A stretch of DNA of 64,000 bases, taken from contig CAJJAW010000003.1 in assembly GCA_905182195.1 (NCBI GenBank), positions 1-64,000 of the forward strand, in the 5' to 3' direction. Source of the DNA: Alphaproteobacteria bacterium UBA4588 (lineage in GTDB: Bacteria; Pseudomonadota; Alphaproteobacteria; Rhodobacterales; Rhodobacteraceae). The position numbers were made by a program, and so were the translations under genes. This document shows positions 9,786 to 53,859 of this stretch, piece after piece (positions within the stretch are counted from its first letter, which is position 1; each line of letters opens with the position of its first letter). The notes below the pieces were generated by a model. The model worked only from the letters and a program-made list of their open reading frames with translations. It made no database searches and had not been told where the DNA came from.

Positions 9786-9821
9786 AAAAAAACACCACAC
9801 TTTGGTTTTACCAAAGGTGGC
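9786..9821 (-). terminator. Intrinsic terminator of the SOS small gene
   Basis: On the minus strand an 11-bp stem (CCACCTTTGGT side, one bulged base) with a 3-base loop is followed by TG and seven T. It lies 85 bases past the stop codon of the 47-residue gene at 9907-10050, and no other minus-strand gene lies in between. Confidence 0.8.
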
Positions 9822-9906
9822 GAGGTGGGCATACAAGGCAAGCATTCAGTATACTAAAACACTATGAGCAGGTTAATAACTAAGGTGCTTTAAAATGGCA
9901 TTCACG

Positions 9907-10050
9907 TCATAAGCTAGGAATAAATAGGCCTACATAAAGCATTACTATAATAGCAAATGCTCCTATGGCATCTTTTACTGTTTCTTTGGCCTCTAGGCGG
10001 CGGGCATCTGCTGCGCGGTCAATGTGTTTGTTGGATAAGACATTTTTCAT
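9907..10050 (-). CDS. Putative SOS-induced 47-residue membrane protein
   Basis: I do not recognise this protein from any family. The frame encodes 47 residues. Residues 1-27 are charged and probably helical (KHIDRAADARRLEAKETVK), and residues 28-46 form a single membrane helix ending FIPSL, suggesting N-in orientation. Evidence that it is a gene: ATG preceded by GGGAG, a consensus TATAAT box, two LexA-type boxes upstream and an intrinsic terminator downstream. It sits directly after recG on the same strand. LexA-controlled single-helix proteins elsewhere include the Caulobacter division inhibitor SidA and the E. coli toxin TisB; either kind of role is possible here, but there is no sequence similarity I can claim. 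Confidence 0.75.
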   Translation of the reverse strand: MKNVLSNKHIDRAADARRLEAKETVKDAIGAFAIIVMLYVGLFIPSL

Positions 10051-10071
10051 TTTCTGCTCCCAATAATGTTT

Positions 10072-10086
10072 GTTCTTACTTTGTTC
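10072..10086 (-). promoter_or_regulatory. LexA (SOS) box 2 of the small membrane gene
   Basis: GTTC-N7-GTTC on the plus strand, which is GAAC-N7-GAAC on the minus strand, the alphaproteobacterial LexA operator. It lies 22 bases upstream of the ATG of the 47-residue gene. The same arrangement with 7-base spacer is found at the lexA promoter in this window (53119-53133). Confidence 0.8.
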
Positions 10087-10109
10087 TCACAGACCGCACA
10101 GTTTGTAAA

Positions 10110-10124
10110 GAACAAAATAAGAAC
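10110..10124 (-). promoter_or_regulatory. LexA (SOS) box 1 of the small membrane gene
   Basis: GAAC-N7-GAAC on the plus strand (GTTC-N7-GTTC when read with the gene). It begins directly after the -10 box, so a bound repressor would cover the transcription start. It lies 23 bases from box 2, in the opposite orientation. Confidence 0.8.
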
Positions 10125-10154
10125 ATTATAGAAGATAAAACTAACCTACTGAAA
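10125..10154 (-). promoter_or_regulatory. Promoter of the SOS small gene
   Basis: On the minus strand TATAAT, a perfect -10 match, is preceded after 18 bases by TTTCAG, a weak -35. The -35 lies inside the last codons of recG. Start of transcription would fall in LexA box 1, leaving an untranslated leader of about 65-70 bases. Confidence 0.65.
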
Positions 10155-12228
10155 TTAAACGAATAGATTTGTCTTGTTCCATTAACCAAAGTAACGTTCT
10201 AGCGGCTTTACCCCTAGGGCTGGTAAGGCTTGGATCACTTTGCAACAACATACGGGCGTCTTGATGGGCGATTGCCATCAAACTAGTTTGAACATCTAGG
10301 TCCGCCACTTTAAACTTTGGTAGGCCGGATTGAACTGTGCCTATCACATCCCCGGCACCACGCATTTTCAGATCTTCCTCAGCGATCCTAAACCCATCTT
10401 CGGTTTCACGCAGTATAGCCAGCCTTCGGTCACCAGACTCAGTTAACGGATGTTGATAAATCAGTAGACAGGTCGATGCAGCCTCGCCACGACCCACGCG
10501 ACCACGTAGCTGGTGTAACTGTGCCAAACCAAAATTTTCAGCGCGTTCAATCACCATGATAGTAGCATTGGGTATATCTACTCCCACCTCAATGACCGTA
10601 GTAGCCACTAAAACTTTAGTTTTGCCTGCTACAAAAGCCGCCATAGCGGCGTCCTTCTCAGCCGGTGTTAATTGTCCATGGACCAACCCAACGTGATCAT
10701 CACCGAAAGCCGCCCGCAATACTTTGAACCGCTCTGCTGCAGCGGTGAGGTCCATAAACTCACTTTCCTCCACTAAGGGACATACCCAATAAGCCTGTCG
10801 GCCTAAGCTAATAGCCGTTTTCAATTTAGTAATCACGTCAGGCAAGCGCGCAAGAGGCACAGCAGCGGTGATTATTGGTTTACGGCCGGGTGGTTTTTCA
10901 TCCAGAATTGACACATCCATATCGCCATAATGCGCCAACTCTAGAGAGCGTGGGATTGGAGTAGCAGTCATAGTAAGAACATCCACCTTGATGCCCTTCT
11001 CACCTAGAGCAAGACGTTGATTCACTCCAAAGCGATGCTGTTCGTCAATAATCGACAGGCGAAGATCATAAAATTCAACATCTTTCTGAAAAACTGCATG
11101 GGTGCCCACCAAGATGTTGATGTCACCAGAGCGTAAATCTGCCAGTTTTTGGCGCCGCACCGCATTCTTGTCTCGCCCAGTCAAAATCTCAAGCCGTACA
11201 CCGGCAAAGTCAGCCAACGGACGCAAACCTTCGAGATGCTGGCGCGCTAGGATTTCTGTGGGCGCCATCAAGACACCCTGGCCTCTGGCTTCAACCGCCT
11301 GCAGTAAAGCCATAAACCCAACTAAAGTTTTACCAGCACCCACATCACCCTGCAATAAACGGTTCATCCGCCGGGGACTGTCCATATCAGCACTAATCTC
11401 AGCAATAGCCCGCGATTGCGCACCAGTTGGCTTATAGGGAAGCTGGGCCAAGATTTTTCGTTTGCAAGCGCCCATCGCCCTCAGTCCTGCGCCCAATATT
11501 CATCCGCGCTTGGCTCCGCGCAATGGCTTTAGTCAGCTGATGCGCCAGAAATTCATCGTAAGCCAAACGCTCACGCGCTGGAGCCTGTGCAGAAATATCA
11601 AATGCTGCTTTCGGGCCGTGAGCAAATTGCAGCGCAATTTTGAATCTTGGCCAATGACGATCGCGAAGCAACGATGGCTCAATCCACTCATCAAGGTTGG
11701 GAACCCTAGTCAACGCTGCAGTAACCGCTTTCAGCATAACCTTAGGGCTTATCCCGGCAGTGAGCGGATAGACTGCCTCGAAGCTAGGAAGCGAGCTTTG
11801 TTGATCCAGAGGAAGAACATAATCCGGATGCACCATCTGCGTGCGATTATCAAAGGCCTCCAGCTTTCCTGAAATCAGCCGCTGCTCTCCAACAGGAAGT
11901 AACTTCTCAAGATAATCACCGCGGACATTAAAATAGATCAACTCAATAGTGGATTCTGCGTCCTCAACAATAATACGGTGAGGTTTGCCACGACTATGCG
12001 CCAAAATATGCTGTATAACGGTGACTTGCACCGTTATGATTATAGCCTTAGGTAGTCCTTGGACACTTGGGACAATCCGGCGGTCCACCACTGAATGGGG
12101 CAAAGTAAATATCAAATCGCGTGGTTTGGAAATTTTGAGAGTTTCAAAAGCGGTCGTAGTTTTTTCACCCACGCCTGGTAAACTAGTGAGGTCGGAAAAC
12201 AACGGGAACAGGATTTCAGGACGGCAGT

Positions 12229-12232
<4 letters not shown>
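10141..12232 (-). CDS. recG: ATP-dependent DNA helicase RecG, one frameshift
   Basis: RecG reverses stalled replication forks and branch-migrates Holliday junctions. The two frames together give about 697 residues, the expected size. The first part (to about 11460) is the wedge/OB domain, opening FSDLTSLPGVGEKT. The second holds the helicase core: PTGAQSRA, QGDVGAGKT (Walker A), DEQHRFG (DEQH box, motif II), TATPIPR and RGRVGRG. The frame breaks near 11455-11463 at a run of five A. Nothing is missing between the parts, so a single base was gained or lost. The start overlaps the end of ligA by 4 bases. It is either inactivated or misread; read-level data would decide. Confidence 0.88.
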
Positions 12233-14743
<2,511 letters not shown>

Positions 14744-53104: not shown

Positions 53105-53133
53105 TTGACACAAAAGGAGAACGTGAATAGAAC
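53105..53133 (+). promoter_or_regulatory. lexA promoter with LexA box
   Basis: TTGACA (-35, perfect) is followed after 17 bases by TAGAAC (-10). GAAC-N7-GAAC at 53119-53133 overlaps the -10, so LexA would block its own promoter. This is the reference SOS box of the window. Confidence 0.88.
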
Positions 53134-53166: not shown

Positions 53167-53859
53167 ATGCTGACCAAAAAGCAATTGCAACTGTTAGAGT
53201 TCATTCATGCCCGGACCAAAGTCGATGGGGTGTCACCGTCTTTTGATGAGATGAAGGAAGCCCTAGATCTGCGTTCTAAATCGGGCATCCATCGTTTGAT
53301 CACAGCGCTGGAAGAACGTGGCTTCATCCGCAGGCTGCCCCATCGGGCACGCGCCATTGAGATCATTCGCATGCCTGAACCAATGTCATCACCCTTACGC
53401 AGATTTGAGCCCCGAGTGATTGAAGGATCACGCCCAGGTCGGCCTAAGGAGGCATTAGATCTTGACGAGAGTGAAATCAGATCCCTGCCAATGATGGGCC
53501 GTATTGCTGCCGGTGTGCCTATATCAGCCATTGAAGATTATTCCCGCAACATCGCTGTGCCCAGTGAAATGGTGTCGAACAGCGGGGAGCACTATGCACT
53601 GGAAGTCAAAGGCGATTCGATGATCGAAGCTGGTATCAACGATGGTGATGTTGTCGTGATCCGTGAAACCAGCATCGCCCAAACCGGCGATATAGTGGTG
53701 GCCTTGGTGGATGATCACGAAGCCACATTGAAGCGGTTCCGCCGTAATGGCAGTGCAATCGCACTGGAAGCCGCAAACCCCGCCTATGAAACCAGAGTGT
53801 TTCGTGATGATCAGGTTAAGGTTCAGGGCAAATTGGTAGGCCTCATCCGCACCTATTAA
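53167..53859 (+). CDS. lexA: SOS repressor LexA
   Basis: LexA represses DNA-damage genes until RecA-ssDNA triggers self-cleavage. The 230-residue protein has an N-terminal winged helix-turn-helix ([21 protein letters not shown]), a linker and a peptidase S24 domain. The cleavage bond is A115-G116 (RIAAGVP), with the catalytic serine S151 (GDSMIEAGI) and lysine K189 (TLKRF). The ATG at 53167 has AAAGGAG upstream; seven extra codons upstream lack support. A GAAC-N7-GAAC operator lies on its own promoter. Confidence 0.97.

Follow-up and report, generated by a model that had tools for sequence, protein, structure and literature searches.

We found that a 47-codon gene behind recG, encoding a predicted single-helix membrane miniprotein, lies under a LexA-type operator in the 64,000-nucleotide stretch of DNA analysed here (the window), and that such a gene, 31 to 47 codons long, stands under a LexA-type operator in nearly every sampled genome of the group. 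The existence of the gene and of its SOS operator is nearly certain. Control of the gene by LexA is very likely, because recA, uvrA, lexA and further repair genes of this genome have such a box upstream as well. As to function, we favor the proposal that the miniprotein is an SOS division inhibitor that works like SidA of Caulobacter, a proposal to which we give an even chance. The gene belongs to the Rhodobacterales, abundant marine bacteria that are the home of gene transfer agents. The positions of all features are collected in Table 1.

Table 1. Elements of the miniprotein transcription unit and the lexA operator in the window.
Feature	Positions	Strand	Basis or remark
Gene for the 47-residue miniprotein (predicted single-helix membrane protein), stop codon included	9907..10050	-	frame, profile matches, pN/pS
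Shine-Dalgarno GGGAG	10057..10061	-	six bases 5' of the miniprotein ATG
Intrinsic terminator, hairpin and U7	9786..9822	-	fold and shuffles
Operator 1, GTTCTTATTTTGTTC, LexA-type GTTC-N7-GTTC	10110..10124	-	exact in most loci
Operator 2, GAACAAAGTAAGAAC, GAAC-N7-GAAC	10072..10086	-	placement in the start region inferred
TTTACA, likely -35	10104..10109	-	conserved, adjoins operator 1; assignment inferred
TATAAT named in the initial annotation	10125..10130	-	unconserved, probably not the -10
recG, upstream neighbour of the miniprotein gene, two frames here	10141..12232	-	sequence
lexA-upstream operator, GAACGTGAATAGAAC	53119..53133	+	same type as operator 1

The initial annotation described a 47-codon frame behind recG, with GGGAG ahead of its ATG and a terminator with seven T, and each of these elements was found, on the minus strand. 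The terminator hairpin (9822-9793), which is followed by seven U, folds at -18.8 kcal/mol, and none of 200 shuffles was equally stable. Shine-Dalgarno sites, GGAG or GAGG-like, are present in many of the relatives' miniprotein loci. The leader folds less stably than its own shuffles (z +1.34), and an Rfam scan of the locus gave nothing above the gathering score. The gene mostly stands alone in its neighbourhood: among 67 loci, compared by unannotated open frames, an opposite-strand frame of at least 100 codons ends no more than 300 nt away in 63, and a same-strand frame of at least 100 codons starts within 100 nt of the miniprotein gene in 12.

We aligned the upstream regions of related loci and found a conserved promoter-like element, GTTC-N7-GTTCTTTAC, then TGAGAACAAAG; in full it consists of TTTGTTCACAAATGTTCTCAAAAAGTTCTTTAC, followed after about 16 bases, most of them variable, by TGAGAACAAAGNGGCAACA. 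The putative -35 is TTGAC in a few genera and TTTAC otherwise. An exact GTTC-N7-GTTC lies upstream of the miniprotein gene in 66 of 69 distinct loci, a set that leans to good matches, because most searches were fetched best-scoring first. Outside the genus Planktomarina all 50 distinct loci carry it; within the genus 16 of 19 do. Of the three that do not, L024 lies at a contig end, L012 has a spacer of eight, and L021 shows a change of one base and retains an exact second site. A further 20 loci, taken from lower among the matches listed, have the exact operator in every case. The "perfect TATAAT" of the initial annotation exists, but it is not conserved, most relatives having CACAAAT or a similar sequence; we rejected it as the -10, since it is peculiar to the window's genome among those aligned.

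The same annotation proposed two operators, and took them as a sign of tight repression, as for toxic products. Both operators are present in the window, but an exact second GAAC-N7-GAAC occurs in just 3 of the 69 distinct loci (the window's, L018 and L025), so that two exact operators were rejected as a general rule; the argument for tight repression leans on this rarely exact second site. In 58 of the 69 loci the second site is GAAC-N7-CAAC. Operator 1 abuts the putative -35, and the second site likely covers the -10 and start region, as judged from the alignment. In this species the two operators also form an inverted repeat, with arms of 17 bases that differ by a single mismatch (10071-10087, 10109-10125); the second arm differs in most other loci.

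The association of operator and gene also held in less biased samples, which comprised the 20 listed of the 49 genomes missed by the protein profile, 196 genomes searched by DNA pattern, and all 30 genomes that lacked the pattern. A composite-element pattern that is blind to the protein matches 166 of the 196 genomes, usually once; the reversed pattern, as a control, matches one genome. Thirty pattern-fetched loci were inspected: 29 have a small gene behind the element, and recG ends no more than 150 nt upstream of the element in 28. The remaining locus without a small gene (L229, the same place as L251) was judged a chance match. Among the 30 genomes without the composite pattern, 28 have the miniprotein by profile, and 22 of these 28 carry the exact box; the other six offer only a one-mismatch site, in some cases far from the start and unconvincing. 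L147 and L164, from the last two of the 30, show a diverged frame together with boxes.

We then asked where else the box occurs. In the window it lies upstream of lexA (ATG at 53167, stop ending at 53859; TIGR00498 above its cut-off), as the initial annotation had said. Beside the lexA operator we found GAAC-N7-GAAC-N7-CAAC, a half-site pattern like that in the miniprotein promoter. Elsewhere in the genome to which the window belongs, such a box stands upstream of recA and uvrA, and also of the start of a dnaE2-like error-prone polymerase, an imuB-like IMS-domain gene and a uvrD-like helicase. For recA, uvrA and the IMS gene, the open frames that overlie the box are shorter than 100 codons; for the dnaE2-like and uvrD-like genes they are longer (333 and 348), which makes these two less clear. 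Taken by itself, the box sequence is weak evidence: the window holds 3 where 1.47 are expected, and 17 of 100 shuffles have as many; in the own genome outside the window, 34 of 46 matches lie under an open frame of at least 150 codons, and matches to the reversed pattern outnumber those to the pattern itself (115 vs 49). The miniprotein operator is credible because it is conserved across genomes, rather than from the window sequence alone.

Two further boxes in the same genome may be mentioned here. One, outside long frames, lies 31 nt upstream of a 168-residue frame (L136:1011-1545; G000:C7:198610) that has no Pfam or NCBIfam match and is possibly a diverged ImuA. The other, GAACCAGCGCAGAAC (L110:973-987; G000:C2:41372), falls between an ilvC-like frame and a divergent frame resembling an Lrp/AsnC-type regulator, both named by eye; its link to the SOS response is uncertain.

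The homologue search proposed with the initial annotation returned intact frames with upstream boxes across related genomes. Within Planktomarina, a genus of the order Rhodobacterales, the miniprotein is present in 19 of 20 genomes, the window's own included, and the named records that match it comprise 13 of 15 from Planktomarina and 2 from Rhodobacteraceae. A profile built from 38 aligned relatives (A2) has matches in 341 of the 390 order genomes searched and in 134 of 140 genera, almost always in single copy; the matches shown all come from the window's own family, so that "order" here is in effect that family. Of the 49 genomes that A2 missed, 20 were inspected by way of recG, and every one proved to have a box and a diverged frame: in 18 the box and a hydrophobic frame of 31-43 residues lie directly behind recG, and in two (G320 and G434) the element and a 31-residue frame are on recG's contig, apart from recG. 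These two genomes belong to one genus; in G320 (L156/L248) the operator and frame lie roughly 1 kb past recG, in G434 (L157/L249) some 26 kb from it and on the opposite strand, and they remain together in both. An earlier profile (A1) had matched 78 of 295 family genomes; this low count looks like a lack of sensitivity, because A2 found 341 of 390 and the inspected misses all carry the gene.

The frame is, to judge from its pattern of substitution, a real protein gene under purifying selection: over 53 pairs of relatives, which are not independent, differences at the three codon positions number 354/213/798, and the pooled pN/pS is 0.26. Beyond the family the picture changes. A class-level search matched 10 of 385 genomes, five of which belong to the window's family; the five outside it were rejected, since they are pieces of 631-969-codon frames, a frame of just 17 codons or one interrupted by a stop. 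Three outside-family matches that were re-found by profile (L106, L107, L109) have no box within 250 nt. Behind recG in other alphaproteobacterial families, a box within 400 nt was found in 0 of 28 loci, the best 28 of 68 genomes with a recG match, one of which (L174) had only 261 nt. The unit thus appears specific to this group, given that the class-level search gave no credible match outside the family and that the 28 recG loci showed no box, and close to universal in the group's sampled genomes.

The family seems to be new. Searches of Pfam, NCBIfam, PHROGs, PADLOC and the PDB gave no credible match: PsbI (0.13), the sole Pfam match of 38 members, YgaH (0.0063, 2 of 38 members) and unnamed PHROGs at 0.026 or worse were judged chance; PADLOC gave none, and the PDB holds no solved structure of it. 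Phage and plasmid collections, queried with one family member, likewise gave no match. A search of titles and abstract openings, with supplements and subscription papers outside its scope, found no description of the gene, and it is not among the in silico LexA targets given in the accessible part of the D. shibae paper (PMC6473078). Its absence from the family libraries can be put down to its shortness, a route by which widespread SOS genes can escape them. We conclude that the miniprotein probably represents an unnamed, group-wide and previously undescribed family among SOS-induced single-helix miniproteins. The suggestion of an undescribed SOS effector in Rhodobacterales is thus strongly supported by the conserved frame and operator, the sharing of that operator with recA, uvrA and lexA, the wide distribution and the lack of a credible family match.

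Members of the family are 31-47 residues long. The N-terminal part is variable and largely absent from the shortest; the core consists of D-x-x-G, a hydrophobic stretch, and L-x-x-P or L-P near the C-terminus. Across 38 aligned rows, D27, G30 and L42 are invariant and A28, L38 and P45 nearly so. AlphaFold2, run without an alignment, gives one helix over residues 4-43 (mean pLDDT 81), and the miniprotein is predicted to sit in the inner membrane by this one hydrophobic helix. In the 38 related sequences, conservation varies along the helix with a period of 100 degrees (permutation p 0.04), a modest result in that the best angle was picked within 85-115 degrees. The mean hydrophobic moment is 0.05, and the largest of the 38 is 0.17, versus 0.35 for TisB. 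Thus one face of the helix is conserved, and the helix is not amphipathic like that of TisB; together these properties favor binding to a membrane partner over pore formation.

What might such a partner be? In Caulobacter crescentus, also an alphaproteobacterium, the accessible part of one report describes SidA as a 29-residue SOS inner-membrane protein that interacts with FtsW and is the primary SOS division inhibitor; the same source mentions other routes to filamentation, so that a single inhibitor may not account for all of it (PMC4211646). A Caulobacter lexA sidA double mutant, according to the part available of a second report, does not filament (PMC13384398). Like SidA, the miniprotein is a very small single-helix protein, with a predicted membrane location, behind an SOS operator, and its promoter carries the GTTC-N7-GTTC operator common to core SOS genes of the same genome. 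It comes from a different order and is likened to SidA by size, helix and regulation, not by sequence. In the search of 385 genomes of the class, which may or may not include Caulobacter, A2 had no credible match beyond the family.

Other bacteria supply parallels by role. SulA of Escherichia coli is a soluble FtsZ inhibitor and shares with the miniprotein a role in SOS division inhibition that is, for the latter, only proposed. PF03846, the SulA family, did not match any of the 38 miniprotein family members scanned, and none of the 101 order genomes searched has it above its cut-off, with the E. coli control positive; one match below the cut-off was rejected because it contains two stops. YneA of Bacillus is an SOS-induced division inhibitor from a phylum other than that of Rhodobacterales. 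SosA of Staphylococcus aureus, again from another phylum, is described in the accessible part of its source as an SOS-induced division inhibitor, likened here by role and not by sequence, and a small membrane division inhibitor in Gram-positives appears in a further partly available report (PMC6051672). Titles and abstract openings yielded no named SOS division inhibitor for Rhodobacterales, and the readable literature no statement on filamentation of their lexA mutants. A 31-47-codon gene under a LexA-type operator in nearly every sampled genome is a candidate for the missing SOS division checkpoint.

We propose the following model. In an undamaged cell, LexA would occupy two places: the GTTC-N7-GTTC that adjoins the -35 and, across the start region, the GAAC-N7-CAAC half-sites. 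Upon DNA damage, RecA-triggered cleavage of LexA would free the promoter, and the short leader with its strong Shine-Dalgarno would permit immediate translation. The helix would insert with its charged N-terminus in the cytoplasm, and the conserved face (D-x-x-G ... L ... L-x-x-P) would dock on a helix of the late divisome (FtsW, FtsI or FtsN). The docked miniprotein would then hold septation until repair is finished, which is the job of SidA in Caulobacter. A role in division is suggested by this analogy and by size, membrane helix and regulation, and we regard it as about evenly balanced. The initial annotation offered a choice between a division inhibitor and a toxin; the former fits the single helix, the conserved face, the SOS operator and the lack of a SulA above its cut-off in the 101 genomes, and the latter fits poorly, as discussed below.

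The helix face that suggests docking on the divisome would suit any membrane partner. It is thus possible, if less probable than division inhibition, that the SOS-induced miniprotein modulates another membrane protein, such as a sensor kinase like CckA, a protease, a respiratory complex or a transporter. Consistent with this idea, LexA of R. capsulatus acts on the circuit of CckA, CtrA and the gene transfer agent, as stated in the accessible parts of two reports (PMC6473078, PMC9638019); against it, the gene neighbourhood (open frames, 67 loci) points to no partner. The specific version in which the miniprotein docks on a cell-cycle membrane kinase of the CckA/DivL type, rather than on the divisome, is improbable. 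If true, it would wire DNA damage directly to the CtrA circuit, and with it to division, competence and production of the gene transfer agent.

A membrane-depolarising toxin for dormancy or persistence, of the TisB or DinQ kind, would also fit the LexA-type operator and the single hydrophobic helix seen here. TisB of E. coli is SOS-controlled. By record annotation it is a single-helix membrane peptide; DinQ of E. coli is, according to its abstract, an SOS-linked peptide of the same build, and both are toxic peptides with antisense small RNAs. We consider a toxin of this type unlikely, because the miniprotein helix is not amphipathic, with a mean moment far below that of TisB, because the leader folds worse than its shuffles, and because the gene is widespread in the order and almost always single-copy; in addition, the one family member used as query was unmatched in phage or plasmid collections.

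That the conserved stretch is not a protein gene at all, and serves recG, an RNA or an operator decoy instead, draws on the very strong conservation of the promoter element and is highly improbable in view of the codon-position pattern and pN/pS, the Shine-Dalgarno sites in relatives, the Rfam scan without a match over the gathering score, and the pairing of element and frame well away from recG in G320 and G434.

The division-inhibitor reading apart, the neighbourhood of the gene in this assembly shows an irregularity. The recG sequence is split over two frames (10141-11496 and 11432-12232), and its open frame has 452 codons here, compared with about 700 in most other genomes compared. A ligA-like gene, named by eye, is likewise split (12229-12831 and 12819-14348). 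Since ligA is normally essential, assembly indels are likelier than real loss of these genes.
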